Shown here piece by piece: positions 7,122 to 40,399 of a stretch of DNA of 49,993 bases. Below the pieces are notes generated by a model. It was not told where the DNA came from. It made no database searches and saw nothing but the letters and a program-made list of their open reading frames with translations. The number at the start of each line of letters is the position of its first letter. The first letter of the stretch is position 1. This DNA comes from a virus: the IMG/VR virus record IMGVR_UViG_3300009509_001510, positions 1-49,993 of that record. One strand, 5' to 3'. Both the position numbers and the translations under genes were made by a program.

Positions 7122-7316
7122 TTATGTTCTATATACTACTCTGACTTCATTTATAAATATCTTTGCACCTTTAACAAGTATGCTAAAATTACTCCTGTTT
7201 ATCAATTTGGCAGTTCTTACCACTATTATCTGTTCGTCATTGATATATACAGATATAGATTGTCCTGTACCAAATTCTAAGACATCAGAGCCCGAAACCA
7301 TCTCGATAACAAGCAT
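7122..7316 (-). CDS. Small beta-rich hypothetical protein
   Basis: 64 aa, starting at the last base of the upstream sigma-like gene (overlap at 7316). The sequence alternates hydrophobic and polar residues (ISVYINDEQIIVVRTAKLIN; FSILVKGAKIFINEVRVVYR), consistent with an all-beta fold. The opening MLVIEMVSGSDVLEFG is faintly like CsrA, but CsrA core residues are not present, so that name is not used. It is the last gene before a strong terminator. Confidence 0.6.
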   Translation of the reverse strand: MLVIEMVSGSDVLEFGTGQSISVYINDEQIIVVRTAKLINRSNFSILVKGAKIFINEVRVVYRT

Positions 7317-7795
7317 TAATTCTCCTCATCATCGCGCTTTCTATCTAGATCATCTAAGGGCTCCCTGTTGCGCAGTTCTTCCATTTGGCACAATATCTCC
7401 AATATCTTTTCGTCCTTAGTGCATATCTTTCTCAATTTTTTGATGGCCCCGCCATATCTCTTTTTATCGTTTGCATAATCTATATTGCCCATTAAAAGTT
7501 TATGGACTGTTGTTTGATGTATGCCTAGCTCTTCCGCAATTTGAATTTGTGTTTTGCCTTCCAAACGCAAAAGGACCACTTCTGCCTGGCGCTTCGTCAA
7601 ATTATTCTTAATGATGCGCATCACTTCATCCATTAATTGTTGTCTCAAATCGTAAAATTCCTCCGAATACATAGCTAGATTTAGCTGTGCTCCTAGCCCA
7701 TTATATAATGGAAAATCGTTCAGAATCACAGGATCCACAGCTATTTCAACTATTTTGTGCTGGTACGAGTCTGACTTGTTTTTTTTACGGGACAT
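7316..7795 (-). CDS. Sigma-70 region 4-like HTH transcription factor
   Basis: 159 aa from the ATG at 7795. This start has GAGGT seven bases upstream and avoids a 29-nt overlap with the primase gene that the longer frame (from 7843) would need. Residues about 66-102 (LTKRQAEVVLLRLEGKTQIQIAEELGIHQTTVHKLL) form a classic region-4/GerE-type helix-turn-helix: a conserved LTxRQ-type entry, then the QIAEELGIHQTTVHK recognition helices. Region 2 is not visible, so it may be an HTH regulator or an anti/co-sigma rather than a full sigma factor. It lies directly after the primase gene and is probably co-transcribed with it. Confidence 0.75.
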   Translation of the reverse strand: MSRKKNKSDSYQHKIVEIAVDPVILNDFPLYNGLGAQLNLAMYSEEFYDLRQQLMDEVMRIIKNNLTKRQAEVVLLRLEGKTQIQIAEELGIHQTTVHKLLMGNIDYANDKKRYGGAIKKLRKICTKDEKILEILCQMEELRNREPLDDLDRKRDDEEN

Positions 7796-7814
7796 ATATG
7801 GTACCTCAGCAGCA

Positions 7815-8582
7815 TTAATCCCATAGGGGTTTAATGTTATCATATTTACTTTCCTCTGGTTTTAAACGGGATATCAATTCACCGACAGAATGATCTTTAA
7901 GAAATTCATCAAGATCTTTGCTGCCTGTCCCATCAAGTGGATTGGCGAATGATAAGTTTATACCTTCACGACTTTTTCGTTCAATGGTTTTACGAGCAGT
8001 AATTTGTGCCTGTTCTTCGTTATCCATTATAAGAATTATATTAGTCGTGTACCTAGACAACAATACCATGTGTCTAGTCGTTAGAAAGGTACCACAGGTT
8101 GCTACTACATTTTCTAAACCTTTTTGGTGAGGTGTAATAACATCAAAATATCCTTCTACCACATAGGCCACGTCGTTTTGTAATATGCTGCGCTTGGCAA
8201 AATTTAAACCAAACAGATGGTGGCTCTTTTTGTATATTGAATTTTTATATTTAGGTATACCATTTTTCTCGCGCTCTTCATTAGACAAACGAGTTCTGCC
8301 CGCAAGTGCTATGTAATTACCATATACATCCCTGATTGGCATCACTAAATCTTGTGTTTTAAAATGACTAGCGGATGCATGTCGTATAATTCCAGCAGAG
8401 CGCAATTCTTTAGGATCAGCGATTTCAAATAGCTCTCTTAAATCCTGTGGAAACAAACCCAATTGAAATTTTGTAATAGAATCTAAAGACAATCCTCGCC
8501 TTTGTTGCAAATATTCCATTGTTCCTTTATCTTGCAAAAGACGTTCATGACAAAATTTAACAACATCGGCAAAAATCTTCAC
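7815..8582 (-). CDS. dnaG: DNA primase, RNA-polymerase/TOPRIM domain only (DnaG-type)
   Basis: 255 aa. It covers the catalytic core of bacterial DnaG: YLQQRRGLSLDSITKFQLG at the start, LVMPIRDVYGNYIALAGR, PKYKNSIYKKSHHLFGL, then the TOPRIM signature VVEGYFDVITPHQKGLENV with the catalytic Glu, IILIMDNEEQAQ, and SKDLDEFL. The usual DxD of TOPRIM reads D-N-E here. Both the N-terminal CHC2 zinc domain and the C-terminal helicase-binding domain of DnaG are absent. The zinc domain is encoded separately at 29646-30269. It synthesises RNA primers for the phage replisome. It lies between a zinc-ribbon gene and the sigma-like gene, transcribed with recA. Confidence 0.92.
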   Translation of the reverse strand: MKIFADVVKFCHERLLQDKGTMEYLQQRRGLSLDSITKFQLGLFPQDLRELFEIADPKELRSAGIIRHASASHFKTQDLVMPIRDVYGNYIALAGRTRLSNEEREKNGIPKYKNSIYKKSHHLFGLNFAKRSILQNDVAYVVEGYFDVITPHQKGLENVVATCGTFLTTRHMVLLSRYTTNIILIMDNEEQAQITARKTIERKSREGINLSFANPLDGTGSKDLDEFLKDHSVGELISRLKPEESKYDNIKPLWD

Positions 8583-8590
8583 TATTATTC

Positions 8591-8920
8591 CTACTCTTTC
8601 CCTTTACTCTTTTCGTACTCCTTCAATCCACGCAGAAATGCGGGAGTGATATGAGCTTGGGTATTACAAGATTGGCAAAAAGCTCTTTCTCCATCCGTGT
8701 ATAGCGGCTGATTTCTATTGCATTGCTTGCAAAGCGCCATGAAAGGCTGCTTGACTTTATGCCTTAGAATCTGGCCTACATCTTTAAGTGCCTTTTTAGT
8801 ATACTTCGTTACACCCTCAATGACATTTCCGCATTCATCACAGATTACTTCATTGGTTTCAGGATCCAGTTTGGCTTCAGTTTTCTGAAGACAACCCTTT
8901 GTTGTGCAATCTATTAACAT
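8591..8920 (-). CDS. Small protein with two zinc ribbons
   Basis: 109 aa. Eight cysteines form two Cys4 knuckle sets: C5/C10/C27/C30 (ICDECGN) and C64/C67/C82/C85 (LCKQCNR...FCQSCNT). The start overlaps the recA stop by 7 nt. The spacer is basic (TKKALKDVGQILRHKVKQ). No catalytic motif is present. The layout suits a DNA- or RNA-binding adaptor. Since it sits between recA and the primase TOPRIM gene, which lacks its own zinc domain, it might help template binding, but that is inference. Confidence 0.8.
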   Translation of the reverse strand: MLIDCTTKGCLQKTEAKLDPETNEVICDECGNVIEGVTKYTKKALKDVGQILRHKVKQPFMALCKQCNRNQPLYTDGERAFCQSCNTQAHITPAFLRGLKEYEKSKGKE

Positions 8921-10026
8921 TCTTCTTCCTCCTCTACATCAGTATCGTGTGACTCAGCATATTTTTTATGAGCCACATATTTTTTGCGAGCTTCTTCTTT
9001 GACTTGTTCAAGAAGCTCATTGGTTAAATTCTCTTTTTCTATAGACGCAAAGAAATTATCTTTGCCGACCCATGTTTTATCTTTATAAATATAACTTTTA
9101 TTATTTGGACGTTGTACTAAATCATACTTAATTGCTAACTGTCCTATTTCTACATTGTGTTCAACTACACCACTTTCGTAATGCAAAGCAAAATCACACA
9201 TGCGTCGTGGAGGGGCCAATTTATTCTTATCTATTCTTGCACCAGCAATATGACCACACACTTCCTGCTTATCATCATACAAAAGTGATTTTTTAGATTC
9301 TGACATCGTGAAGTGCACCATAATATCGCACGCATGGCGCCAGGCTTTGCCTCCAGGCGTAGAAGTTGGATCACCAAACATTTTGCCAATATCCACTCTT
9401 ACCTGGTTAATAGCAATGAACGTAACTCCTGTTTGTGCCAATAATGGTTTTAATCTTCTAATTGCATCTGGTAAAAATCTACCAAATGACGCAATATTAG
9501 TATTACCAACTTGTCTCGTCTGTTCAATAGGTGGCTGCATTTGGGCAATACTATCTAATACAATAAGACCTAGCCCAGAAGGCTCTGCTTTTTCCATATC
9601 CAAAATACCAGGTTTAGATTTGGGCTTGCCAATTTCTTGATGAGGAACACCACACAGTTGTGTAAAAATTTCGACTGCACTTTCTTCACGCATCAGGTAA
9701 AGTCTCTCAATATCCACGCCAAGTTTCTGAGCCCATATCGGACTGAAAGAAAACTCAGCATCTATAAATACAGCCCAATTATCGGGATTCAGCTTTTGCC
9801 ACTCACGAATAGCAATCAAACTCATTAGGGTTTTTCCGCTGCTCTCCTTCCCGGCATATTGAATAATGCGCCCCCTAGGCAAACCCCAGATACCAACAGC
9901 ATCATCTAATGCATAGCTGCCGGTTGGAATAACATCGACATCAAAAAGGGTTTTGCACATTCCATCATTTCCATAGGTCTTTTCCATTTGTGCCCAAATT
10001 TCCTGCATCCTACTCTTTTTTGCCAT
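8914..10026 (-). CDS. recA: RecA/UvsX-type recombinase
   Basis: 370 aa. Walker A is GKESSGKT (59-66), followed by the RecA-type catalytic acid in [10 protein letters not shown] (E91); Walker B is [12 protein letters not shown] (about 152-162); [10 protein letters not shown] and [13 protein letters not shown] correspond to the L2/core region of RecA. The protein forms filaments on ssDNA and drives strand exchange in recombination-dependent replication and repair. The N-terminal helix and an acidic tail ([10 protein letters not shown]) are present. It lies in a dnaJ-recA-zinc ribbon-primase run with short overlaps. It is more like bacterial RecA than T4 UvsX by the Walker and L2 motifs. Confidence 0.95.
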
Positions 10027-10987
10027 TATCCTCTCCTCCGAATGAACTTTTTAGCTTTTTAATAAGCTCCATTTGTTCTTCTGTTAATTTATTTGGAATT
10101 TCTACACTTATTTCGACTAGGTGATCTCCTCGTTGGCCATTAGACCTCCTAAAACCACCATCTTTGATTCTTAATACTGTGCCAGGCTGGGTACTCGGAT
10201 TGACCTTAAGACGCTTTGTGCCGGACAATGTTTTTATATTCATACTATTTCCGAGTATGGCGTCAAACATATTTATATTTAGAGTACTCCCAATATCGGC
10301 ACCATCATTTAATAATACAAATTCGTTGTGTTTTTTATACATAATTGTTATTTCTAAATCGGCTTCTGGTCGCAAGATGGCTCCATGCCTTGTATGCGGC
10401 GGTATTTTTATGACAGTTTCTTGTGTTATAATCTTTTTACCTTGTCCTCCGCACTTATCGCACATACCACCAGGTGCTCTTCCTAATCCACGACATGTAT
10501 TGCATGTCGTGGAAATGGTTAAAAATCCTTGCTGAGTTCTAATATGTCCGTTTCCATTACATTGAGAACAAAGAGCATCCTGTAATTTTAATCCGTGGCC
10601 ACCACATACGCTACATGTCTCAGCATTATGTATTTGTACCTTTTTCTCGCACCCATCGTATGCTTCCTCAAAAGTTATTTCTAATTGTGCTTTGCGCTTC
10701 CTAATCCTTCTTGTCGGCGCCCCAAAAGGATCGAAACCATTGCCAAAAGCTTGATTGAACAAGTCCGAGAAATTCAAACCAAAATTTGGCATAGCTTGTT
10801 GAGGCAGTTGCCAATTGTTTTTTTTAAGCAGTTCGTAAGCACCACTTATCTCTTTGAATTTTTCTTCTGCAGCCTTATCACCCTCATGTTTATCAGGGTG
10901 CCACTTCTTGGCCAATTCTTTATAGGCTTTTTTGATTTCTCCTTCAGAAGCCCCTTGGGCAACTCCTAAAATTTCATATGGATTCAT
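10010..10987 (-). CDS. dnaJ: DnaJ (Hsp40) co-chaperone
   Basis: 325 aa. The J domain (residues 1-56) carries the HPD triad at 30-32 ([11 protein letters not shown]), which stimulates DnaK ATPase. A short G/F-type linker follows ([18 protein letters not shown]). Four CxxCxGxG repeats are intact ([32 protein letters not shown]), so this is a type I DnaJ. The C-terminal substrate-binding domain ends near the stop. No dnaK is visible in the window, so it presumably works with host DnaK, for replication initiation or virion assembly. The gene overlaps ruvC by 4 nt and recA by 17 nt. Confidence 0.95.
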
Positions 10988-11613
10988 TTTTTGCCCTTCT
11001 TCTTCTTTTTTGTTCTAGCTTGTTGGATCTGTGCCCAAAGGTCTGGATTTTTTAGCCGTATGGCATGTGCCCATGCAGCTGCAATGCCATCTGCTTCATC
11101 ATAAGTTTCTTTAGCCACAATGCCCTTTTTATTTAATACTGACGTAAATTGTGGTTCTAAATTAGCTACAATTGCGTCGGGCATTGATTCTTTATCAATT
11201 TCAATATTGTAATTTTTGCTTATTAAATTTCTAATGTCATGCACGGAATATAGATTTACGGATCCAATCTTTTGGAATGCTGCTAATGAGATAATTCTGT
11301 TGAAGGCTGCTAATAAAGTTATTGTGCGGGCTGTTGATTTGCCTTTCATAAAGAGAAAAACATCCTCAACAGCCACGCACAAAGGCCGAGTCTCATCACA
11401 CAATTTACCGATTCGATGGTAAATATCATCCAACCGTTCTATATCTCCATGCTTGGAGTCCAATGGTTTTATATGTCCATGTGCTACAAGAATAGGATTC
11501 TTATTTAGAATAACAAGACCCCATCCAACTGTAGTTGAGCTACAGTCTAACCCAAGGATGCTAGTCTTACTAGTCTTGATTTTTCTTTTTCCTATCTTGA
11601 TAAATCTGTCCAT
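10984..11613 (-). CDS. ruvC: RuvC-like Holliday junction resolvase
   Basis: 209 aa from the ATG at 11613, which overlaps the stop of a 36-aa ORF as TAATG; a TTG 18 bases upstream is the only alternative. RuvC catalytic acids are all visible: D23 in [15 protein letters not shown]83 in VAVEDVF, and D172/D175 in [13 protein letters not shown]. This is the RNase H-like fold of RuvC-type nucleases, which cut four-way junctions. A basic tail (KKKKKGKK) likely aids DNA binding. In phages such enzymes debranch replicated DNA before packaging. The position upstream of dnaJ and recA fits a recombination operon. Confidence 0.9.
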
Positions 11614-11723
11614 TACATCCAGGTCCGCCAACCAAAATGACCATCAGGCTCATTAACACAAGCCCATCTAATTATTGCAGATTCAAATTCTGATATAATC
11701 CTTTTAAATATAATTTTAAACAT
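11613..11723 (-). CDS. 36-aa translationally coupled small ORF
   Basis: An ATG at 11723 overlaps the stop of the upstream 264-aa gene as TAATG, and its own stop (11613-11615) overlaps the ruvC ATG as TAATG. The product is basic/amphipathic at the start (MFKIIFKRIISEF) and Trp-rich at the end (GHFGWRTWM). The double coupling fills what would otherwise be a 110-nt gap in a tightly packed operon, which argues that it is translated. Function is unknown. Confidence 0.55.
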   Translation of the reverse strand: MFKIIFKRIISEFESAIIRWACVNEPDGHFGWRTWM

Positions 11724-15717: not shown

Positions 15718-18700
15718 TTACATCCCATACACTTTTTCTATATGCCTCAACATCAAAGTTTTTACGCCATTAAATTCACTTACTTGACAAATAGCACGAA
15801 CTGGCCTGCCCGGCTGTAATAATTTTTTAGCAATCTTATACTCAGAGGGCCAAACGGTAAGTTCAGTTTCAATTGAGGCGGCATCAGAAACACGATATTT
15901 AATCATAGGTTGACCAGTATATCTACCAGATTTTATTTTAAATTCTCTAAGCTTGGCTTCAACCAAGAATTCGACAATGATCTCGTGTCTATCTGGCAAA
16001 ATCTTAAGTCTTCCGATGGGAGTAGCACCCACACCAGTGAAAAATCCAGGATATAAATCATCGATAGAACCCGAAACTAATTCGCCAAGCACTTCTTGTT
16101 CATGTCTCAACCTTTCCTGTCTAGACCATTCCATCCCTTCTAATTTCACTTCAAAATCTGCTGCAGCCTCATATCCATCATTTTTGCTCACATTTTTCTT
16201 CACCCACACATTAAACCTATCTCTATTTTTCTTTCCTAGGTCATGAATATCTTTGCGAGTCACATTCAACGAATCAAAGCAACCTGCTTTTGCTAAAGCT
16301 TCCATTTTAGATTTGTTAATAACTCGTCCCTCTGTTTTTTCTAAAAATTGAGCAAAATTTTCATAAGGTTGATTTCTCACAATTTCTTCCACGGCTTTAT
16401 CGCCCAAACCTTTGATGGCAGCCAAACCCATAACAATAGTTTTTTCATCAAGTACTTCATATCCTATACCACTGCGATTAATATCTGGGGGCAAAATTTT
16501 GATGCCAATGCGCCTACATTCAGCTTTGGCTGCTGCAATTTCATCGTCTTTGCCAATACCACCCCTCGCTGTTTTTACTTTTAGATAGGCTGCTAAAAAG
16601 GCTGCTGGATAATGTCTTTTTAGATATGCTGTGATATAACCATTTATAGAATAAAATATAGCATGCGACTTGTTAAAACCATAGCCAGAAAACTTTCCAA
16701 CTATTTCATCCCACACTCTTTTGGCAAATTCATATTCAACTTGGTGCATTTCCATCATGCCCTGAATAAATTCAACTTCTAATTTCAGCGCCAAGTCTTT
16801 GCCCTTCTCTTTTAATTTTGTTAACTTTCTAAGGCCGTCAGCTTTGTTTAGATCCCACCCAGCTACGTCTTTGGCCACGCCCATCAACTGTTCTTCCATG
16901 ATACATAAACCATATGTTTGTTCCAAGGTTCTAATCAAAGACGAATGCAAATATTCTATTTTCTTGTATCCAAATCTGCGTTCCACATATGGTTGTCGTT
17001 CCTCTGCACATGAGGGGCGACCCAAAGCATTTACCATTGCAATATCTGCAATTTCCGCAGGTTTTATTTGTTTGCATAATGTTGCCATCATACCAGATTT
17101 GCCTAACTGGAATACACACCGAGTATGACCATCTTGTATCATCTTGTATGTATCTTTGTCATCTAGAGGAATATCTTCCATCTGACGAGGGGCATCTTGA
17201 ATGCCTAACCTTCTAACATTTTTAAGCGTTTCATCTATGACATCCAAAGTAGAAATAGCCAAGAAGTCAATTTTAACTAAGCCGTTGGCCTCACATCTAT
17301 TCTTTTCGTATTGCATAGCCACAGTGCCGTCTTTATCAATCCTGAGTGGCGCAAACTCTACAATAGGAATATCAGATATAACCATGCCGGCTGCATGAGT
17401 AGAATATTCTTTAGGCAAACCAATAATGGCATCAGCATATTCCATAAGCTCGGGACAGCGTTCTGCGAATTCTTTAAGCTTAGGAGATATAGCAATAGCA
17501 CTCTCTAGGGTCTTAACTCTATCACCTTCCTCATCTTGATCTGGGATGGCTGCTTTTATGGCCTCAGATATCTGCACATAATTAGTACCCTCGGGAACTA
17601 GATTTGGCATTACATTCCGCATGGATTTTACCAAATCTGGTATTACATTTTTAGGCGTATAGGTGTTGATATTTGAAACTTGTGCACAATGATCAACACC
17701 ATATTTCTTCATACAATATTGCTTGACCAAATCCCTACCAGAAGATGTAAAGTCTACGTCAATATCTGGTAAATCTTTTTTCTCAGCATTTTGGAAACGT
17801 TCAAAAAGTAATCCATATTTAATTGGATCTACTCCATGTATGCCTAGCAAATAGGCCACCATAGAACCCCCAACCGAGCCCCTTCCTATTCCTACTAATA
17901 TATCATTTTCTTTCGCCCACTTAATAAAATCGGCTACTACTAACATATACGACGAGAAAGAATTCTTTTCAAATACTTTGATTTCTTGTTTTACTCTTTC
18001 CAAACGCTCTGCTATTTGCTCTTTAGATAGAGTTTTAAACTTTTGTTTAAAACCTTTAAATACTCTAAATCTCATAAAAGCCGCGTCTTCAGATATATTC
18101 ACAATCCTAGCTTTTTGTTTCCACTCCAAAAACTCCTGATAGTCAACTTCATTACTTGGATCAAATACTGGCAAATGATTACCCTTAGATTCCATATAAT
18201 CAGGTGACTGACACATTTCTGCGATTTTTACAGTGTTGCCCACCGCTTCTTCAGCTATATCACTACCATAATATTTTTCCAGAAAGGTATAAACTTCTTC
18301 TCCAGTTTTAGCATAGAATTCGTCTATGCCATATCTATGTCTATTTGGATCATCTACAGGCGCTTTAGAATTGAGTGCCATGAGCACATCGTGATACTTT
18401 TCGCTCTCACGAGTTAGATAGTGCGTATCTATAGCGCACGTTAATGGAATGCCATTCTTTTGGGCGATGGATATTAATTGTTCATTAAGAGCATGTTGGT
18501 CAAGATCGTCATTTTTAAGCAGATGCGGGTGAAGTTCTAAATAAAATCTATCTGGAAATGTATATGCAAACCGATGTGCTATTTCCACAGCTTTATCATA
18601 ATTTTCGAAGCGCAAAGCAGCAGCAATTACACCATTAGCACAGGCAGAGGTACATATCAAACCCTCTGAATATTTCTCTAAAATATCCCAACTAATGCGT

Positions 18701-19080
18701 GGAAACACGCGACCCATAAAAGTCACTTGATGTTGGAAACCAGCAAAATTGATCTTGAGCAAATTCTTATAGCCTGTATAGTTTTGCGCCAATAATACGA
18801 TATGCTTGCGCCTTTCTGTTTTCTTACGACCCTTTGATTCCTGATTAATTATATCATATGAATGTACAAAATAGGTTTCGCATCCTGGGATAAACTTAAT
18901 CCCTGTGCGTTTATAGGCACGGAAAGCATCATAATGAGCCGCCAATGTTCCGTGGTCAGTAATAGCCAGAGCCTTTTGTCCCAGTTCTTTGACCTTATCA
19001 AACAAATCATCGACACTTACCAATGCATCTAGCATAGATCCTAGGTTTGTATGCGCGTGTAGATTTACAAAGTCCTTCAT
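15718..19080 (-). CDS. dnaE: DNA polymerase III alpha subunit (C-family, DnaE type)
   Basis: 1120 aa, full length. The N-terminal PHP domain keeps all nine expected metal-site residues: H8, H10, D18, H43 (TDHG), E68 (GCETY), H93, C147, D218 and H220 (DTHY). The polymerase core shows GRGSVGGSMVAYLLGI (399-414), the catalytic PDIDVDF (438-444) and GLVKIDFL with the third Asp. GYGFNKSHAIFYS and tandem HhH-like segments follow, then a C-terminal OB fold (about 1020-1115). Its PHP may supply proofreading, since no separate epsilon exonuclease is seen. It follows the 108-aa gene with a 4-nt overlap. It is the replicative polymerase of this element, unusual against the A- or B-family enzymes of most phages. 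Confidence 0.96.
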   Translation of the reverse strand: MKDFVNLHAHTNLGSMLDALVSVDDLFDKVKELGQKALAITDHGTLAAHYDAFRAYKRTGIKFIPGCETYFVHSYDIINQESKGRKKTERRKHIVLLAQNYTGYKNLLKINFAGFQHQVTFMGRVFPRISWDILEKYSEGLICTSACANGVIAAALRFENYDKAVEIAHRFAYTFPDRFYLELHPHLLKNDDLDQHALNEQLISIAQKNGIPLTCAIDTHYLTRESEKYHDVLMALNSKAPVDDPNRHRYGIDEFYAKTGEEVYTFLEKYYGSDIAEEAVGNTVKIAEMCQSPDYMESKGNHLPVFDPSNEVDYQEFLEWKQKARIVNISEDAAFMRFRVFKGFKQKFKTLSKEQIAERLERVKQEIKVFEKNSFSSYMLVVADFIKWAKENDILVGIGRGSVGGSMVAYLLGIHGVDPIKYGLLFERFQNAEKKDLPDIDVDFTSSGRDLVKQYCMKKYGVDHCAQVSNINTYTPKNVIPDLVKSMRNVMPNLVPEGTNYVQISEAIKAAIPDQDEEGDRVKTLESAIAISPKLKEFAERCPELMEYADAIIGLPKEYSTHAAGMVISDIPIVEFAPLRIDKDGTVAMQYEKNRCEANGLVKIDFLAISTLDVIDETLKNVRRLGIQDAPRQMEDIPLDDKDTYKMIQDGHTRCVFQLGKSGMMATLCKQIKPAEIADIAMVNALGRPSCAEERQPYVERRFGYKKIEYLHSSLIRTLEQTYGLCIMEEQLMGVAKDVAGWDLNKADGLRKLTKLKEKGKDLALKLEVEFIQGMMEMHQVEYEFAKRVWDEIVGKFSGYGFNKSHAIFYSINGYITAYLKRHYPAAFLAAYLKVKTARGGIGKDDEIAAAKAECRRIGIKILPPDINRSGIGYEVLDEKTIVMGLAAIKGLGDKAVEEIVRNQPYENFAQFLEKTEGRVINKSKMEALAKAGCFDSLNVTRKDIHDLGKKNRDRFNVWVKKNVSKNDGYEAAADFEVKLEGMEWSRQERLRHEQEVLGELVSGSIDDLYPGFFTGVGATPIGRLKILPDRHEIIVEFLVEAKLREFKIKSGRYTGQPMIKYRVSDAASIETELTVWPSEYKIAKKLLQPGRPVRAICQVSEFNGVKTLMLRHIEKVYGM

Positions 19081-19403
19081 CCAGATACCTTTCGTTTCTT
19101 TATATATTCAATAAGCAAATCTTCTAGCTGTTCTTTAATACGATTTGCAATTGGCTTCTTGATTGTAAATTTTATCTGCTTTAGTCTATTTACGGCTATT
19201 AATGAGAAATTAGAGTTATTAATCTTGACCATAGAATGTTTAACAAAAGACATAGATGAATTACCCAATGGTTTAAGTGCATCTTCTATATCGGCAGTAA
19301 TTCTAATAGGCAAAGTATAAATATAAGTAGTGGGGCTGCCTCTACAAGCACAGCCCTGACTTATAGTAATAGTTACACCTAATTTGCTCAACTCATGTTT
19401 CAT
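19077..19403 (-). CDS. Small hypothetical protein
   Basis: 108 aa, overlapping dnaE by 4 nt and sharing one base with the upstream gene. Beta-rich first half (VTITISQGCACRGSPTTYIY; LPIRITADIEDALKP), basic helical end (RIKEQLEDLLIEYIKKRKV). A CxC pair sits in GCACRG. The tight coupling to dnaE suggests a replication-linked role, but no known fold is recognised. Confidence 0.7.
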   Translation of the reverse strand: MKHELSKLGVTITISQGCACRGSPTTYIYTLPIRITADIEDALKPLGNSSMSFVKHSMVKINNSNFSLIAVNRLKQIKFTIKKPIANRIKEQLEDLLIEYIKKRKVSG

Positions 19404-19801
19404 TAAGTATCAACCCTCGCAAGCACTACTTCCACATCTGTATCATTTTCTGCATGGATAGACAAAGAGCTTACCACATCTGTAAGTGCCATGCCATTGT
19501 TTTCATCAATGACTAAATTCAAAGATACTTTGACATCATCTTGTTTTACTGTAATGGTATTTACAATAAATGGCTGAGAATATGTGCGCGTCTCATCACT
19601 ATTGTGTAGTAAAGACATTGTAACTGGCGCACTTTCCCCAGCTGTACTGTGTAACTCTAAAGATTTCAGAACATCACCAATATCTCCATCGGTGCGTAAA
19701 TCATCTTTGGCACCTTTGATTACAACCTTAACCTCTGAGCCTTTTCCACTATAAGAAAAAACTTTAAATCCTTGGACCGGTCTAATATTTGTATCTACCA
19801 T
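19403..19801 (-). CDS. Beta-rich hypothetical protein
   Basis: 132 aa; predominantly beta by pattern (FKVFSYSGKGSEVKVVIKGA; VKVSLNLVIDENNGMALTDV), acidic, without cysteine. It lies 11 nt after the trigger factor gene and runs straight into the 108-aa gene and dnaE, so the four are probably one transcript. A structural or sliding-clamp-like role cannot be argued from motifs. Function unknown. Confidence 0.7.
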   Translation of the reverse strand: MVDTNIRPVQGFKVFSYSGKGSEVKVVIKGAKDDLRTDGDIGDVLKSLELHSTAGESAPVTMSLLHNSDETRTYSQPFIVNTITVKQDDVKVSLNLVIDENNGMALTDVVSSLSIHAENDTDVEVVLARVDT

Positions 19802-19812
19802 TTTCTTTCTCC

Positions 19813-21153
19813 TTATTCAAATGGATTTTCAGGAACGCTTGGCACATCCGAGACATCGGGCTCTTCTGACCCTTCAACATTAGGCTTTTCAATATGTGCC
19901 TGAGATAAAATCATATCCATAATCTTTTTGTGCTTAATGACGGCATAAACCCCATCAATCATGCCCTTTTTCTTTATATCACTCTTTAAAGCCACTACAC
20001 TAGTATTATGTCTTTCGGCTTCTTGTTTTAGAAAGGCATCTAATTCTTCTTGTGTAATGGCAAGGCCCTTTTCCGCATCGTATATTGATTCCATAATAAA
20101 GGTACGGCGCACGTTTCTCTCAGCCATCTCTCTAACGTGCTTGGTCATCTCTTCATCAATTTTAACCATACTGGCACCCAGCTGACTAAATAGATATTTC
20201 TCTTCATCTTCGACCCAGCTCTCTGGCACTTCAAATTCATGTAGTTCAATGAGCTTATCAACAATTCTTTCTTCAAGAATTTGGCGCCTTCTCTCATCGG
20301 CTATCTCTTGAGCCTTCGGAGTAACTTCCTGTTCTACCAGATCATCATACGAACCAAGCCCGATTCTATCTGCCAGCTCTTCGTCTGTGGGTCTTATCCG
20401 CTCGGTTATCATTTTAATATCCATCTTAACATCAGCTTCTTTGCCAGCATGTTCGCCATAATTCTCAGGAAGCGTAATTTTGGCTGACGCCATTTCACCT
20501 CTTTTCACACCAAAAAGATTTTCACCAAATGGTGGTTCCTGGCCAGCTCTAATCATAAATTTATGATCTTTGCTAGTTAATATCTCTTCGTTATCTACTA
20601 GAAGCCAAAAATCTAAATCCACTATAGAATCTTCTTTAACCTCATCAATTGCCTGGATAGTAACATGTTGTTCTCGCAACTCTTCTATTAAACCTGCTAT
20701 TATTGGCTCCAGCTCAACTTGTGGATTTTCTAGGGCCATGCCTAAGTAACCGGAAGGAGTAATAGATGGCTTTACTTCCAAAAAGACTTCGCAGGAAAAC
20801 GTACCATCTAAATTAAAATTAGAATTCTCAATTTTTGGTTCATTAAGCGGCGATAATTTTTGTTCATAGCAGGCATGTAAAAATCCTTCTTGGGCAAGCA
20901 TAGTCATAGCAAATTGTTTAATATCTTCCAAATGCATTCTTTCTACTAGTTGCTTAGGTGCTTTGCCCTTTCTAAAACCTTTAAGCTGGACTCTTTTGGT
21001 CACAAACTCAGTTGCTTTATCCATGGCCATTCCCACGCCTTCGAGATCATATGTAATATTTACTTTCTTTTTTAGTCCACCCAAATCCTCAACTGTTACT
21101 ACATGATGCCACCGCTCCTCTGTTTGTTCAGTGACCTGCTTTATTTCTGACAT
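19813..21153 (-). CDS. tig: Trigger factor (ribosome-associated chaperone)
   Basis: 446 aa, close to the bacterial length, SD AAAGGAG before ATG. The N-terminal ribosome-binding domain keeps the docking signature GFRKGKAP (59-66) that contacts ribosomal protein L23. The central FKBP-type PPIase domain spans about 160-250 (KEDSIVDLDFWLLVDNEEI; FGENLFGVKRGEMASAKITL). The helical C-terminal cradle fills 255-425 (RRQILEERIVDKLIELHEFE; VPESWVEDE), ending in an acidic Pro-rich tail. All three domains are present, so it should bind host ribosomes and fold nascent phage proteins. It lies between a zinc-ribbon gene and the dnaE run. A tig gene in a phage context is unusual. Confidence 0.93.
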   Translation of the reverse strand: MSEIKQVTEQTEERWHHVVTVEDLGGLKKKVNITYDLEGVGMAMDKATEFVTKRVQLKGFRKGKAPKQLVERMHLEDIKQFAMTMLAQEGFLHACYEQKLSPLNEPKIENSNFNLDGTFSCEVFLEVKPSITPSGYLGMALENPQVELEPIIAGLIEELREQHVTIQAIDEVKEDSIVDLDFWLLVDNEEILTSKDHKFMIRAGQEPPFGENLFGVKRGEMASAKITLPENYGEHAGKEADVKMDIKMITERIRPTDEELADRIGLGSYDDLVEQEVTPKAQEIADERRRQILEERIVDKLIELHEFEVPESWVEDEEKYLFSQLGASMVKIDEEMTKHVREMAERNVRRTFIMESIYDAEKGLAITQEELDAFLKQEAERHNTSVVALKSDIKKKGMIDGVYAVIKHKKIMDMILSQAHIEKPNVEGSEEPDVSDVPSVPENPFE

Positions 21154-21156
21154 TTA

Positions 21157-23175
21157 TTACTCCTTTAGTTCTATATCCAAACCAGTTACTTTTTTAGATC
21201 TCTCTACTTTATTTTTCCATATCCTCCAGAACTCTAAATCTCTTTTACCAGTTTTCTCCTCGTCTTGTATGCGTTCTATTAAAGGCCCCAAAATTTTGGT
21301 ACGTAGTCTTATTATTCTCTGTATTGGCGCGTGAGTTGTGTGCCCAGGCATAATAAGTGCTTCAACCCTAACAAGATCTCCTGGAACTAAACCACAATTA
21401 TTCATCTGTATCGCTTGCCATTCACAAAATCTAATGTCCTTTTTAAGATTATTACCCACAATTTTTCCGTTCAAGAATTTATGTATAGAATATACTCTAG
21501 CAATGCGTGGAGAAAATCTTTTTGATTGTAGATTTATTATATTTGTATTATTTGGAATCTTGAGCTTCGAGTTTACAACGGAACGAAAAATCGACATTGG
21601 TCCGCCAGAAAATTTCGGTGCTCTGCAAAACCATTTAAAATCTTTAATACTTTGTATACTAGGATCTAACTTAGTAAACTTTTCTATATTTTCTTCTAAA
21701 ACATCCATCCAAGTATAAAATAATGATTGGTGCACAGATGCAGTTTGGCCTCTTAATACATCTGTCATCTTTTTCTTATTTTCCCCAGGATAAAGTGCCA
21801 TTTCCTTTTCAGTCATATCTCTTTCACGAACAGACCACCCAAAAAAGTATCTAAAAGCATCTTGTGGATAATTAAGCATCCATTTTATAGTTGCCATAAA
21901 AAAGCACCATGTGGTAAGGCCAGCCGCCGAATTTATTTTTATTCTAGCCATATGACATATAATTTCATTTATAAGAATATTTATATTCTGCTTGGCCAAT
22001 ATTTGATTATCTAAATCAACAAACTCACTTACTAAATTGTTCTTTTGCGAAAACTCGCCAGCTTCTTTATCTTTATCCTGATCCAAAATGGTTGTACATT
22101 TTTGCTCCCATATAGAAATTGACGGCAATCCTGTCAGAAAACCAGACTTTTTCTTAAATCCAGCCTTGGAATTTAATGCCGAACGTGGAGTAAACTTGAT
22201 ATTGCAAAACGGACAAAACAATGGCAAATCAAGTATTTCTGCAGGCGGCATAACAAAGCCCTGAGTATTTCTAGAAATTGATATGGTCTTTAATATTTTT
22301 CCTATCAAAATCAATTTCTTTTTTGGAGCCCCAGTTTTCCAGTTTTCAAAGTCTATAGAATTTATAGGAACAAATTTTCCTTTGCATTCATCTGAAGGAC
22401 ATATGCATGTTATACCTATAAATTTTCTAAATATTTGTGCGCTTTTTATTTTGTCAGAGACATTAAAATCACTGTCCAGAGCACACTCTAAGTTTTTTAC
22501 ATATTCATCGCAACGAGGACAAGAATACTGTAGGGACCCATGATATATTAATGGAGTCTTTTGTGGCACTGTATTTGACAAACAATATGGACAAGCTAGC
22601 ACACTCTTTAATTTATATCCTAAATCAGTTCCTATTTCTCTTATAAATTCATTTTTAATAGAATCTATTATATATCCACCGGGCTTTTTCATATAAGTAG
22701 ACTTTTCAAGCCATTTGCCTTCCAGATAAACCCCAAGAGCATAATTTATCTTTTCAATTATTTTTGCTATTGTGGCACGGCCATGAGTTGTATCTTCAAG
22801 CCTTATTCCATTCTCGTTAGCATTTCTTTTTTCTTCTTCACTAAATAGTGGGAAAGGAACACTCTTGTGGACGGAATTCCGCCATTTTACACGATCAAAC
22901 CATACTTTGCCAAACAAAATTACGGCATGTGGTATTATCCACTGATTATATAAATCCTGCCGCAAATGAATCATTGGCCAGTTTTTAGGTTCACCAATTA
23001 TGTCATTAAATTTATCTTGTGAGGTAATTTCAGAAAATACTCCCATGTTAGGAATTGACTTTGGAATGGGCCAAGAACTACATGCCCGCGTGGCCTTTTC
23101 TTCTTCTGATAATATATCTTCTGGTGGCAATTCATGGGCGTATTCTTCTAACCAACGCCTTGCTTGTTCGTCCAT
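21157..23175 (-). CDS. Large zinc-ribbon protein of unknown function next to sigma factor
   Basis: 672 aa from the ATG at 23175, one base after the sigma factor stop; the frame is open further (to 23232) but that would overlap the sigma gene. Several Cys pairs form likely zinc ribbons: ACPYCLSN...YSCPRCDEY, ITCICPSDECKG and LFCPFCNIKF. Long helical stretches follow (INILINEIICHMARIKIN; YFFGWSVRERDM) and a C-terminal beta-like domain (PGDLVRVEALIMPGHTTHAP). No catalytic motif or family is recognised. Coupling to the sigma gene suggests a role in phage transcription, for instance a sigma partner or polymerase-binding protein. Confidence 0.8.
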   Translation of the reverse strand: MDEQARRWLEEYAHELPPEDILSEEEKATRACSSWPIPKSIPNMGVFSEITSQDKFNDIIGEPKNWPMIHLRQDLYNQWIIPHAVILFGKVWFDRVKWRNSVHKSVPFPLFSEEEKRNANENGIRLEDTTHGRATIAKIIEKINYALGVYLEGKWLEKSTYMKKPGGYIIDSIKNEFIREIGTDLGYKLKSVLACPYCLSNTVPQKTPLIYHGSLQYSCPRCDEYVKNLECALDSDFNVSDKIKSAQIFRKFIGITCICPSDECKGKFVPINSIDFENWKTGAPKKKLILIGKILKTISISRNTQGFVMPPAEILDLPLFCPFCNIKFTPRSALNSKAGFKKKSGFLTGLPSISIWEQKCTTILDQDKDKEAGEFSQKNNLVSEFVDLDNQILAKQNINILINEIICHMARIKINSAAGLTTWCFFMATIKWMLNYPQDAFRYFFGWSVRERDMTEKEMALYPGENKKKMTDVLRGQTASVHQSLFYTWMDVLEENIEKFTKLDPSIQSIKDFKWFCRAPKFSGGPMSIFRSVVNSKLKIPNNTNIINLQSKRFSPRIARVYSIHKFLNGKIVGNNLKKDIRFCEWQAIQMNNCGLVPGDLVRVEALIMPGHTTHAPIQRIIRLRTKILGPLIERIQDEEKTGKRDLEFWRIWKNKVERSKKVTGLDIELKE

Positions 23176-23176
23176 T

Positions 23177-23716
23177 TTACTTTCTCTTTCTAGAAAAATT
23201 GCGTGCCTCCAATAGCTTACGTCGCACTGCACGGGTTAAGCCCCATGGAGTGATATTTTCATCCTCTGCAATTTTACTTACTTGTTCTCCTCCAACAAAT
23301 AGACGAAACATAATGTTTTTCCATTTGTCATCCCAACTCTGTGTACACTGTACGATTTCTATTCTATCTGTATAGTCTGGAGAACAAAATACAGATTCAT
23401 GGATGGAATCTAAAGAATAAGATATATTTTTACGTTTATAAGAATCTATAAGTTTATAATAGCATATTTTGTATAAGAAGGTAGATAAGGAAGTATTTTG
23501 TGATGGATCATAAACAAGGATGCCCTCTAACATTGCAACACATAAATCCTGACAGAAATCCTCAAACTGTTCCGGTGATTTAGATGCAAATTTAGTCATT
23601 ACACCTTTCATATCTTCAAGTACTTCATGAAAACCAGTGCCATCATCAGTATCCACGTAAATATTTTTACTGAACACTCGCGCAATAAATTTTCGCTTAC
23701 TATTAAGTACTCTCAT
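23177..23716 (-). CDS. Sigma-70 family RNA polymerase sigma factor
   Basis: 179 aa. Region 2 is clear at about 45-98: EQFEDFCQDLCVAMLEGI, then VYDPSQNTSLSTFLYKICYY and KLIDSYKRKN, the FDPxxGxxFSTYL-like core helix and DNA-melting helix. A region 4-like HTH occupies about 130-172 (IMFRLFVGGEQVSKIAED; ITPWGLTRAVRRKLLEAR). The length fits ECF or phage late sigma factors. It should redirect host RNA polymerase to phage promoters. It follows the Cas4-like gene by 6 nt and is coupled to the zinc-ribbon gene downstream. Confidence 0.85.
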   Translation of the reverse strand: MRVLNSKRKFIARVFSKNIYVDTDDGTGFHEVLEDMKGVMTKFASKSPEQFEDFCQDLCVAMLEGILVYDPSQNTSLSTFLYKICYYKLIDSYKRKNISYSLDSIHESVFCSPDYTDRIEIVQCTQSWDDKWKNIMFRLFVGGEQVSKIAEDENITPWGLTRAVRRKLLEARNFSRKRK

Positions 23717-23722
23717 GAACGC

Positions 23723-24478
23723 CTACCAAGTATTAAAACAAGGGTCTCTAAAATCGCACCAATCACAAAGCCTAGAGGGTTTGGTAATCCACCTTTCCTC
23801 TTCAGAAATTCTATTACCTATCTCAATCAAACGATTTTTTTCTTTTATCACATCTTCTTTATTAAAGTCATAACTAATATTCATTCCATTAAATCTTAGC
23901 ATAATATAAGAGCCCCTAAACCTATCCACCCCAGGATATTTATCTAATAGATAAATTCCATATGCTCTGAGCTGCGCAGCATCCATGTATTTAATATTTT
24001 TATTGGTTTTATAATCTTTGATATGATAAAGTCCATCTGAATCCAGGTCCAATCTATCTATAACGCCCCTAAGATCATATTTATCATTTAAAGAAAGTGT
24101 GAATTCTTTTTCTAAAGAAAGGATTTTTGAACCTATACCATTGGCTTTTAATCCTCTTATATAGTCTCTAAGTAATGTTTTGGCTTCATTTACAGTCTCT
24201 GTAGATAATTCAGACTTATCAGCTTCCATGCCATCCCATTGTTTTTGAAATGCGACCTTCATAAGCTTTGCCATATTGCTGGGCGTATGTTCATCATCCC
24301 TATATTTTTCATGAAAATATTCTAGGGCACCATGGGCAAGATGACCCAAGTCAAAGTGTTCCCAGTCTTTGCGCGGCAAATGTTCCACATAACAATAATA
24401 GTATTTACGTGGACATTGCTCATAAGTCTTTACGCGACTAGGAGATAATACTAACTCTAAATTGTCTGGTTTTGTCAT
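23723..24478 (-). CDS. Cas4/RecB-like PD-(D/E)XK nuclease with Fe-S cluster
   Basis: 251 aa. The RecB-type nuclease motifs are present: GHLAHG near residue 45-50, LRGVIDRLDLD (catalytic D141), and HIKDYKTNK (D155, K157). Four cysteines, C22 (EQCPRKYYY) and C238/C241/C247 (LCDWCDFRDPC), have the spacing of the 4Fe-4S site in Cas4, AddB and related nucleases. It probably resects DNA ends in phage recombination or replication. No cas1, cas2 or CRISPR repeats are present, so a CRISPR adaptation role is not supported. The start overlaps the 299-aa structural gene by 4 nt. Confidence 0.9.
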   Translation of the reverse strand: MTKPDNLELVLSPSRVKTYEQCPRKYYYCYVEHLPRKDWEHFDLGHLAHGALEYFHEKYRDDEHTPSNMAKLMKVAFQKQWDGMEADKSELSTETVNEAKTLLRDYIRGLKANGIGSKILSLEKEFTLSLNDKYDLRGVIDRLDLDSDGLYHIKDYKTNKNIKYMDAAQLRAYGIYLLDKYPGVDRFRGSYIMLRFNGMNISYDFNKEDVIKEKNRLIEIGNRISEEERWITKPSRLCDWCDFRDPCFNTW

Positions 24479-33072: not shown

Positions 33073-36000
33073 TTAGATAACGTTCTTAATAAGACCATTG
33101 ACTATCACCAAACTGACGCCCGTGCCAACTGCAATGGTTCCACTATATCCATCTGTATTTACTACTCCTTGTTTAGTAAGTCGTACTTCTTTGCGAAAAT
33201 CTTTGTAGAATAGTTCTGAATAGCCGTCTGCCGCTTTAGTGTATAGCAAGCCGGCATCATTTAATGCTGTTGGGGTACTTATCTCATTAAAAGTAAGATA
33301 ACCATCTAATGCAAGTGCATCTGTTCCGCTAGCATCGATAAAAATTGGACCATTGTCAGCAAGGATCGCTCTACCTGAGCCGCCACCAGTCCCATCATAT
33401 GCTTTGTCTAGAGTTGTATTATGTGGATTACTGGTATTATCCTTGTGTGTAATCAATGTAGAATTAATTGAAATAAGTTGTCCAGCCTGATATGCATCAT
33501 CATTTGTGATATTCTGAAATTGATCTGGTAAACTATATCCATCAACGGTTCCAACATTAGTTATATTATTACTACCCATATCTAAACTACCAGACATAGT
33601 ATCTGAACCGTCAAGTGCTAAATAGGAATTAAACTTAGCATTAATAGTAATAAGTTCTGAATTTATTTCAGTGAGTTGTGTCTGCTGATATGCATCATCA
33701 TTAGTAATGCTTTGGAATTGGTCTGGTAAATTATAACCATCAACAGTTCCAACATTGGTTATATTATTGCCACCTACATCAAGACTTCCAGACATAGGAT
33801 CAGAGCCGTCAAGTGGCAGATAAGAATTAAACTTAGCATTAATAGTAATAAGTTCTGAGTTAATTTCAACGAGCTGTGTTTGCTGATATGCATCATCGTT
33901 AGTAATGCTTTGGAATTGATCTGGTAAATTATAACCATCTACCGTGCCAACATTGGTTATATTATTGCTGCCCATATCCAAATTGCCAGTCATAGCATCC
34001 GAACCGTCAAGGAGCAGATAGGAATTGAATTGAGCATAAATGGCAATAATCTCATCGTTTAGTTCTGTCAATTCTCCTTGCTGATATGCATCATTATTTC
34101 CAAGATCCAATAAATAACCATCAATGCCAGCTAAGTGTGCTGTAAGTTCATCCACACTAGTTACTTCTGGCGGCGATGTATCAGGAGTATAGTTACTTGG
34201 ATTCCAGGTAATATCTAATTTATCGCCATCAATAGTATCGGTGCCGCCATAAATATGAGACGTTGCATGTGCAGCAAACTCATCTGCATTAAGGCGCCCA
34301 TACTTAGTGATTTGGGTTGTAAGACCATAATCATCCATATAGAATAATTCTGTATAGCCATCAATCGTCTTTACATAAAGATACCCATCATCGATATAAA
34401 ATGATGGATCATTATCAATAGCATCAAATTTTAAGTAGCCATCGGCATTTGCTAAGGTAATCCGCGCAGTCCCACCAACATTTGTTACTACAAAACCTGG
34501 CGAAATAAAATCTAAGGCTGCAGGCTTGTCAACTATAGTTACAGAAGCATTTCGAATTGGAACAAGACCGCCACGCCTGCGATATGCTTTAAATGTTGAA
34601 TAAATACCTTGTTCGCCACCTGAAACATGCATTGTACCAGAACCAGCTGCTCGCTTCAACATTACACGATAAGTATGACTGCCGGCAGCTTGTGCAGGAG
34701 AAGATGGCAGTACAACTGTCATCATGGTATAATTTGAATCTTCAGAACAGGCGGTAATCATTTCACCTACTGGATCAGCGCCATCTATACCAATACCAAC
34801 CAATACTTCGGTTATATTGGATTGCGTATAAATAGTAACATTACCACCAAACTCAAGTATTTCTCCTTCAGAACAGTCGATTGTAACTGCTAGATCTCCT
34901 CGACTATCTTGAACTGCTTCCCAAGACCCTGTATTAGCTGCATGCCAGGTCTGATCCATTGTGTAATAATCAACCAATGTGCCACCAGCACCAGAGCCGG
35001 AAACAAAATCCAAAGTGACTCGTTGCATTATTCCATCAAAAAATCTTAGATACGAGCCACCAGCCACAGTATTTTGTGCATATACTACTATGTGATGAGT
35101 TCCAGCTGATAAAGTCGCCTGGTCTACAAACGTATTTGCGAACTCAAATATTGATGAAGTTTCTAGTCTTACATTCCAATTAGATCCACCAAGTACTATT
35201 TCACCACTTGTTCCTTGGTCGATATACATTGTATATTTTGCCTCACGAACAGATACCCACGTTTCCCAGCCTCTAGCGTCAAATTGCACTCTGTAAAGTC
35301 CAGATGCTGTTGTTGTAAAGTAGCCATCAAATATTAATATTGGATCACCACTTGATGTGTTGACTGTTCCCTGATTATATTCTTGCGTTTCACTATAGCC
35401 CAAAGCGGAAATCGCCTGGTTCAACTCAATTCTTGCAGTTCCACCAGAATTTGTTACTTCATATATACCAGCGCCGATGAAATCCAAGGCTGCGGGTTTA
35501 TCAACTTTCGTTTCGCCGTCTTGACGGATTGGAACAAGACCACCACGGAACTGTGTCACCGTGATCTTGGCTGGGTTCTGCGCCGAATTGGTTGAACCCA
35601 TCACCCGGATGTTCTGGTCAGCGATAGCCCGCACACCGACGACCTTGATTGTGTGTGTTCCAGCAGAAAACTGTTTGGTGTAGACCACATCGATTTGTGT
35701 TGGCAAATCCGCTATAACATCACTGTGAGCGTGTGCGTAGTACTCAACGGTCCCATCAATATCCAACCCTATCGCAAAAGGATGCGTTGTATGAGCGGCG
35801 GGGTCTCCGTACCCGACAACCTCGATCTTCACGAACTCACCCTCCGAGGTATTGATGTTCACTTCGAGGTCGTCACCGCTACCGTTGTCGATGTCCTGCC
35901 ACGTAGTCGTGGGAATCACCTGCATGTAGGTTCCCCAGGAGTACGTGTTGGTGATGGTGAAGTCAGCGACTAGGGTTTTCTCGGTGACGAGGCTACCACC

Positions 36001-39000
36001 TGCGCCACTACCTGTCAATGAATGTAAAGTCAGCGTCCAACCCTGAACTAAGAATGAAGAAGAGGATAGCAATCTTAGACCACTGCCCGACAACTCAATA
36101 GCATATCCCTTGACCGTGTGGGTGCCAGCAGTCAGCGTCACCTCTGCCTCAAATGTCGGATAGACATAGGCTGTGGTTGCTCTAACTCCCCAGTTTGAGT
36201 CATATCCTACGTACTGCTCAGCCGCAGTACCTTCATCGAATACTACTTTACATTGACCGCTAGTGGTAGATGAAGCATTCCAGTACCCTGTCATAGTCAC
36301 TCGATACACACCTGAAAGTCGTGCTTCAAATGTGAACTCTCCACCTGCTGCTGGGAAGAACTGGGTGTCGGTAGCACCAATAGCTACTTCAAAATCTGGC
36401 TGTGGATCTTGCAAAACGATGAGGTCGCCTGGGGCAGTAATTGCCTGATTCAATTCAATTACAGCTGTGCCACCATAATTGTCTACAGTATAAATACCAG
36501 CGCCTCGGAAATCCAAAGCTGCGGGCTTATCAATTTTGGTTACGCCGTCTTGACGAATAGGGACAAGGCCACCGCGATATCGAGTGATAAATGCGGAAGA
36601 AAGTTCTGGAACTCCCCAAGCATTAGTGGAACCTTTAACAGTAAGTGTACCATAGTCAGTATATATACCAATTTCTACCGTATGAGAGCCGGCACTTAGA
36701 GTAATTGGCATAGAACCAGATAGTGTGTCGCCGTATGTAGAGGCTCGCACTCCCATAAACACCCATGAGCCTCCATCTACACGATATGCTGTTCCAGCCG
36801 TATGTAAAGCACCATGATTAAGAAATAAGAAAAAGTTAAGATAAACTGTTTCATCTTCAGAAGTATCAAGTGTGTTTGTTAGACCAGTTATAACATGCCA
36901 ATTATCTTCTGATGGAGTCACAAAATCAGAAGATAATGTGGCACTAGACAAAAGGCTACCACCGGCTCCAGAGCCAGAAATAAGCCGCAGCTGTAGAACG
37001 CTATCACCGCTTGCTTTATTGTCAAGCCCCAGCCACCGAAGTGTTCCAGTTGCTCCAATTTCTTTGGCGTAGGCTTTGAGGGTGTGAGTTCCCTCTGTCA
37101 AGTTCACCTCATCAAAAAAGGTCTTAGAGGTGTAGTTGTAGCCGCCAGCCCCACTATACTCCCAAGCGGTTCCATAGCCAATACTCTGCTCACTGGCCTC
37201 TCCCTCATCAAACACCAATTTAATTTGGCCCGTCGGATAGTTGTTGAAGGTAGACATGGAAGTAAACGTAAAAGAGATCGCGTATAGTCCTGTAACCGGA
37301 ACGACGAAATCGACGCCGGGACCAGATGCGGGAACGACTTGTGTTTCACTGGGGTCTTGAGCTATAGTAATTGTTGTGGCAGGTTGATCGCCCAATACAG
37401 TGATCAGAGATCCTAGAGCCGTTATTGCTTGGTTTAATTCTATATTAGCGGTTCCACCAGAATTAGTAACCTCATATACACCAGCTCCAATGAAATTTAA
37501 AGCAGCAGGTTTATCTACGATGGTAACACCATCCTGACGGATTGGAACAAGACCGCCTCGGTCTTGAACGGCCCACGTACGTGAAACAGGATAGTAACCA
37601 AGAAGATTGGTATCACCACCAAATACAGTCAAATTGACTATATTGACATAGACCCCAAACTCCACAGTATGGGACCCAGCACTAAAACTGTGGACAAAAC
37701 TACCAGCTACATTACGGTCCCAGGAAGATGATGCGTTGGCCAGAGGTAACCAGGATCCTCCATCCACGCGGTACAATGGAATAGTGGTGCTAAACGTGGC
37801 AGAACTAGTAGAACCACAGATCAGATAGTGGAAGGTAATGTCTTCTCCTTCACTAGCATCAAACGTCAAGTCCAGTTCGGTAAGCTTAACTGCTGAACCG
37901 AAAGCAACTACTTGATCGGCAGTTTTTGCCGCACTGGCTATAACATTTCCACCAGCACCAGAGCCAGTGACTAGTTGTCCAACAACCACATGACCGTCGC
38001 CTGCATCAACAAGCAATGTTCCGCTTCCATCAGTTCTTTTCCATTGTGGTTTAATTGTGTGTGTACCAGTTGTCAAAATAACATTGCCAAAAAATGTTTT
38101 TGCAAAATGTGAACCATTTGTAGTTTGCAAAATCTCCCATGTAGCATCGTCATTACCGATAATTTGTTCGTTCGCTTCTCCTTCATCAATTACTAATTGA
38201 AAACGTCCACTGCAATATGAACTTGTTTGATGTGCACTGGCCGTGTACCAAAGAGCATAGGTTCCTGCAGTTGATATGGTAAAACTATCCGACATTGATG
38301 CATCAATGTCTACGAATGAAGAAGAAGTTGTTGAATAGGTACCGCCGGGCACCAGAGACATAAGTGTTTCAAATTCTCCAATTGCCGTAATAGCCTGATT
38401 TAGTTCAATTACAGCTGTGCCACCATAATTATCTACGGTATAAATACTTGCGCCACGGAAATCCAAAGCCGCAGGCTTATCAATCTTTGTTACGCCGTCT
38501 TGGCGGATTGGGACAAGACCGCCACGATATTGCCATATTGATGATCTAGCTGGCCATCGTGATGCACCCATTACTGTTAAAGTGCCCAATGCCGTTGCTG
38601 CTGCTACATCGATTATATGGGTTCCAGCAGATAATGTAATGTCTACTTGACTGTTTATACCATAGGCGCCCGAACCCAATACGCCTAGACTGCCAAAAGA
38701 TACCCATGAACCACTATTGATTCTATAATATACGGTAGCCGTCGCTGCACTGGTTAAATTCCAAGGTGCTTGAAAGGTAAGCAAAACTGTTTCGTTTGAT
38801 GTGTCTATTGTATGTGTTGTTATAATGACTGGAGTCGTAGTTATTGGTCCAACATCTGTGCTATTTGTCTGAGCATCAACAAGAGCGCCACCGGCTCCAG
38901 AGCCAGTAATAAAGTCAAGTGAAACTGTCACATATGAACCGAGATATTCGGGAGTCATTCTTCCGAACTCGAAATTGCTTAAACCACTATTTGTACATTC

Positions 39001-40362: not shown

Positions 40363-40399
40363 GTTCCAAAGAACCTCTCAGCTAAAAATTTTCTCCTTT

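Follow-up and report, generated by a model that had tools for sequence, protein, structure and literature searches.

A predicted viral trigger factor linked to DnaE and DnaJ, and its replacement by a GroEL-like chaperonin in a sister lineage

The window, by which we mean the whole stretch of DNA that was analysed (a viral IMG/VR contig of 49,993 bases), carries a gene for a predicted trigger factor (TF) within a replication operon. Related viral contigs keep this gene beside the DNA polymerase III alpha gene (DnaE) and in the company of a DnaJ, while a sister lineage carries a GroEL-like chaperonin in the DnaJ slot. We regard this exchange of TF and DnaJ for GroEL as the best clue to function. 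The reading that we favor, and that we judge probable as a whole, is a phage-owned co-translational folding module, made up of TF, DnaJ and host DnaK, for which a chaperonin can substitute. The pattern suggests that viruses of this lineage bring their own protein-folding kit.

The trigger factor gene of the window

An earlier note on this DNA had proposed a complete phage-encoded TF at 19813-21153 with an intact GFRKGKAP docking loop. Both proposals were borne out in this viral record, with the gene on the minus strand; the ORF is complete and starts with the ATG at 21153-21151. The features of the gene and its protein are as follows.

19813-21153, minus strand: TF gene, 446 aa (TIGR00115, Pfam Trigger_N and Trigger_C, AF2 model)
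21160-21166, minus strand: Shine-Dalgarno-like AAAGGAG preceding the TF start and overlapping the end of the upstream 691-aa gene
20710-21099, minus strand: N-terminal ribosome-binding domain, residues 19-148 (Pfam Trigger_N)
20956-20979, minus strand: ribosome docking loop GFRKGKAP, residues 59-66 (signature GFRxGxxP; G59, R61 and G63 do not vary among 44 TFs of phages and bacteria)
20389-20646, minus strand: PPIase-type (FKBP-fold) domain with eroded pocket, residues ~170-255 (fold match to the E. coli TF PPIase domain, 1l1p)
20515-20544, minus strand: clade A flap replacement GQEPPFGENL, residues 204-213, standing where GxGxFIPGFE would be
19906-20334, minus strand: C-terminal chaperone (body/arms) domain, residues 274-416 (Pfam Trigger_C)

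The protein scored 219 bits against TIGR00115 'tig', the NCBI equivalog (cut-off 180), 84 bits against Pfam Trigger_N (cut-off 22) and 63 bits against Pfam Trigger_C (cut-off 23). An AF2 model built on a 44-sequence alignment shows a TF fold with a mean pLDDT of 91.8, and its best PDB match by Foldseek is E. coli TF (1e-22, 424 columns, whole chain). Judged by score, docking signature and modelled three-domain fold, the ORF is a genuine trigger factor. The earlier statement that all three TF domains are visible stands for the architecture and fold and fails for the PPIase active site: a Pfam search gave no PPIase match in the window TF, the substrate flap is deleted, and an intact FKBP-type active site was not found.

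Like bacterial TF (E. coli Tig; TIGR00115, PF05697/PF05698; PDB 1w26, 2vrh, 3gty), which it matches over its full length, the window protein has the same domain order, fold and docking loop. It differs in being ~22-26% identical, in belonging to a separate phage clade, in the loss of the flap and several PPIase pocket residues in that clade, in its N-terminal extension, and in being encoded in a phage replication operon.

The window encodes DnaE, split primase genes, UvsX, RuvC, SSB, SbcCD, an FtsK-like protein, topoisomerase II, MazG, a dNMP kinase and sigma-like factors. The genes that bear on the context of TF and DnaJ are listed here.

23723-24478, minus strand: PD-(D/E)XK exonuclease, upstream, in the conserved block (domain match and relatives' gene order)
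21157-23232, minus strand: 691-aa protein of no assigned family, directly upstream of TF, conserved in clade A only (44-49% identity)
19403-19801, minus strand: 132-aa protein between TF and DnaE, conserved in clade A
19077-19403, minus strand: 108-aa protein between TF and DnaE, conserved in clade A
15718-19080, minus strand: DNA polymerase III alpha (DnaE), 1120 aa, fixed neighbour of TF (Pfam PHP, DNA_pol3_alpha, finger, HHH_6)
10984-11631, minus strand: RuvC-like resolvase flanking the DnaJ/GroEL slot (phrog_159)
10010-10987, minus strand: type I DnaJ, 325 aa (J domain with HPD, four CxxC, DnaJ_C)
8914-10026, minus strand: UvsX-like recombinase flanking the DnaJ/GroEL slot (phrog_97)

Spacing is tight, with 3 bp from the 691-aa gene to TF and then 11, -1 and -4 bp through the two small genes to DnaE. 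The 691-aa protein has Cys-pair motifs and gave no family match; its model is of low confidence (pLDDT 61), and it was left out of the interpretation. A 3474-aa ORF in the record of L011 (L270:7163-17587) shows weak similarity (21%) to it. Sigma-70 region 2 (23177-23716) and region 4 (7316-7843) are encoded by separate genes, both of which recur in relatives, and a split sigma factor is possible. Two giant, repetitive, Gly/Thr/Ser-rich fibre-like ORFs, with weak or no family matches, lie at 33073-40362 (2429 aa) and 40400-43573 (1057 aa), and giant ORFs matching this pair were observed at the same place in the record of L011.

Relatives, linkage to DnaE and phylogeny

A scan of viral contigs with the single protein as query returned no TF relatives, but alignment-based scans did find them, in three groups. 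Members of group A, to which the window belongs, are mostly 43-51% identical to the window TF, with two outliers near 30%; group B TFs are 24-29% identical and those of group C ~20-26%. The groups share a block comprising FtsK-like, primase, SbcD, SbcC, dNMP kinase, a Fn3-associated-type protein, PD-(D/E)XK, TF, DnaE, SSB, RuvC, DnaJ and UvsX, apart from local differences and contig ends, and L032 and L034 are the exceptions. These two loci fall among bacterial TFs and lack the phage gene block, and were set aside as contamination or host DNA. To remove docking-motif bias, a further scan was anchored on PolIII-alpha (DnaE) instead of TF. Of the 79 viral loci, 71 carry TF a short way upstream of DnaE, on contigs of up to 480,838 bases, and three to four of the eight DnaE loci without TF stop short of where TF would lie. 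The contigs come from metagenomes, and most of them are partial; terminase-like matches were seen in related records. The TF-DnaE region has no match at the DNA level among 50,697 GenBank phage records, which suggests that the lineage is uncultivated.

The earlier note had asked whether the protein belongs to a phage clade or is a recent host capture. We built a maximum-likelihood TF tree of the phage TFs and 41 bacterial TFs from many phyla, a bacterial sample partly chosen on the docking motif; the tree has no outgroup and long internal phage branches. A single branch (ultrafast bootstrap 97, SH-aLRT 95) separates all phage TFs from the bacterial ones; they form one phage clade that is not nested within any one bacterial species or taxon, and recent host gene capture was rejected. 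The split persists without the PPIase domain (98), and the best bacterial identity is ~26-28%. Support for the clades is 100/100 for A, 100/100 for C and 93/88 for B. In a DnaE tree, rooted on one distant sequence, A and C again form clades, as does B except for one long-branched row. Shared gene order and matching TF and DnaE trees argue for vertical inheritance within a phage lineage rather than recent capture from a host. The best explanation, part of the reading that we judge probable as a whole, is that TF has long been inherited in a lineage of large tailed phages as one of its core genes.

Several related loci differ in detail. DnaE inteins were identified in three related phages (L128:5598-10325, L180:9998-15826 and L129:10001-14707; Pfam Intein_splicing, with LAGLIDADG also in L180), and none in the DnaE of the window. 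Some clade C DnaE polymerases are split over two ORFs. A very divergent TF-like protein with GFRAGKVP (L175:6823-8082 and L176:3862-5121; 137 bits to the phage TF model) occupies the same place, upstream of a split DnaE. The TFs of L116, L117 and L118 are extended at the N-terminus by a Lys/Arg-rich stretch (MTKKKRKKRKK...), which recalls the basic extensions reported for ribosomal protein S21 of huge phages (PMC7162821).

Docking loop and PPIase pocket

Residue columns are given in E. coli numbering for 64 aligned, non-redundant phage TFs. In the docking loop, G43 and R45 are present in 64/64, G47 in 62/64 and F44 in 59/64. Only five columns are invariant across the 44 phage and bacterial TFs, and three of them lie in the docking loop; the bacterial TFs from genome contigs were picked by GFRKGK, so their loop invariance is no evidence, a bias that does not affect the phage set obtained by way of DnaE. 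A broken loop, which would have counted against the earlier note, was not found, and the loop is strongly constrained across a deep phage clade. With dN/dS of ~0.05-0.2 in most of nine TF pairs, where synonymous change was measurable, the TF gene is, from its codons, under strong purifying selection.

The PPIase domain presents another pattern: its fold remains, while the pocket, whose residue roles we take to be those of the E. coli TF PPIase, is eroded in two of the clades. The window protein lacks M194 and has I195->E, F177->I and F233->V, and across clade A M194 is deleted in 12/12, I195->E is found in 9/12 and F233->V in 11/12. Clade C has lost Y221 and mostly F177, and clade B retains the pocket. 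TF can act as a chaperone without PPIase activity, and PPIase residues vary in many bacterial TFs too, so we do not hold the eroded site to be disqualifying. In the reading favored here, which we would give good odds overall, prolyl isomerisation would not be the main job of TF in the clade of the window. The loss of the pocket in two clades bears on the purpose of that domain.

DnaJ, the GroEL lineage and the role of the module

The type I DnaJ that the earlier note placed at 10010-10987 was confirmed, with HPD at residue 30, CxxC at 125, 140, 162 and 176, and DnaJ_C at 91 bits; its central-domain Pfam model scores just below the cut-off. The pairing with TF also held beyond the window: DnaJ was present in 40/40 TF-bearing records in one set and in 24/29 in another, where the five misses are two bacterial-type contigs and three partial records, making it a constant companion wherever sequence reaches. 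No HSP70/DnaK was found in 28 records, so the phage DnaJ would need host DnaK.

Three loci of the sister lineage (L134-L136) keep the gene order of the block without TF and without DnaJ, and encode a Cpn60 chaperonin of 545-546 aa between RuvC and UvsX. These GroEL-like proteins scored 182 and 206 bits against a Cpn60 cut-off of 34.3, with the nucleotide-binding motif GDGTTTAT intact. A scan with their DnaE brought the lineage to nine contigs that have this arrangement and neither TF nor DnaJ, including near-duplicates (L231, L235), and GroEL occupies the RuvC-UvsX slot of DnaJ in 9/9. No TF was found in a whole-record search of these nine contigs, which are incomplete, and no J domain in the whole 232, 132 and 102 kb records, where positive controls were detected. 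Among the TF-bearing records GroEL is present in 2/44, elsewhere in the genome. In the DnaE tree the GroEL lineage is one clade, sister to A+B+C. The exchange was therefore probably one event, and because of this Fisher values overstate the association of TF and DnaJ versus GroEL.

The TF-less phages with records of 102-232 kb (L243, L246, L256, L258, L260 and L262) carry two GroEL-like genes each, one in the DnaJ slot and the second elsewhere. A 95-aa ORF before DnaE in L135 was considered as GroES and gave no match. Giant ORFs of 2116-2352 aa without assigned family (L134:2550-9608, L135:3206-9556) lie just upstream of DnaE, the usual place of TF.

We infer a pathway that runs from ribosome binding through phage clients to a handover to host DnaK. 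Phage TF would dock on uL23 of the host ribosome via its GFRxGK loop and, once docked, would shield emerging phage polypeptides, while phage DnaJ, acting in the same pathway, would recruit host DnaK. The position of TF in a packed replication operon argues for replication-phase expression, and the module would serve phage proteins made with that operon, possibly later ones as well. In the sister lineage, GroEL-like chaperonins encoded by the phage would take over this task. Somewhat less firmly, though we still lean towards it, we propose a folding line of large and huge phages in which the core replication-operon module predates the split into three clades and is interchangeable with phage chaperonins, as a whole-system exchange in one viral lineage.

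The location of the genes could also indicate a dedicated replisome chaperone, in which the main task of TF and DnaJ would be post-translational: folding or assembly of the 1,120-aa DnaE and remodelling of the replication complex. Host DnaJ and DnaK remodel the replication complex for phage lambda, TF is fixed beside DnaE, the genes from TF to DnaE in the window being spaced by -4 to 11 bp, and DnaJ lies beside RuvC and, in most groups, UvsX. However, a near-invariant docking loop would be superfluous for a purely post-translational role, and the gene order may mirror shared timing rather than a common client, so we consider this improbable. Slightly more doubtful still is the idea raised in the earlier note, a chaperone for virion proteins, in which TF and DnaJ would fold giant beta-rich fibre or structural proteins. 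The phage chaperones known so far often have virion or lysis proteins as clients, and the repetitive ORFs at 33073-43573 have counterparts at the same place in the record of L011, yet these ORFs have weak or no family matches and TF sits in the replication operon, ~12 kb from the fibre-like genes. Very unlikely is a host-takeover factor with no role in phage folding, ousting host TF from ribosomes and impairing host protein maturation: a docking loop kept while the pocket eroded in clades A and C would suit it, and the Lys/Arg-rich extensions of L116-L118 could help competitive ribosome binding, but the C-terminal chaperone domain is retained, the gene is evidently under strong purifying selection, and a folding role is indicated by the swap for a chaperonin, a type of protein that does not bind the exit tunnel.

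The folding module that we favor has partial counterparts among known phages. DnaJ is likewise carried by large phages (Lak phages, Agrobacterium phage Atu_ph07 and uncultured phages), but their records gave no TF match, whereas in the present lineage DnaJ goes together with TF and keeps to a RuvC-adjacent slot. Pseudomonas phage EL encodes a GroEL-like chaperonin, gp146 (PMC7185714), and is analogous to the sister lineage as a large phage with its own GroEL-like chaperone; gp146 is of a chaperone class other than TF, and the GroEL of the sister lineage sits in the DnaJ slot. TF is regarded as a cellular gene, and a phage clade with a conserved docking loop makes viral control of host nascent-chain handling directly testable. 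With the exchange of TF and DnaJ for GroEL, nature offers a test of whether folding by a chaperonin and co-translational folding can stand in for one another.

We found no published phage trigger factor in the literature covered, which left out most subscription papers and preprints, and no TF fold in the BFVD viral library; one paper states that TF analogues were not detectable among Southern Ocean viral proteins (PMC8407431). TF matches in the GenBank phage collection were not accepted as phage TFs: eight of the records were inspected, all of them lacking annotation and flagged UNVERIFIED, and the two that were put into a tree group with bacteria. PHROG 26774, which has no function assigned, matches nearly the whole window TF, and TF-like proteins are present in viral/prophage sets.
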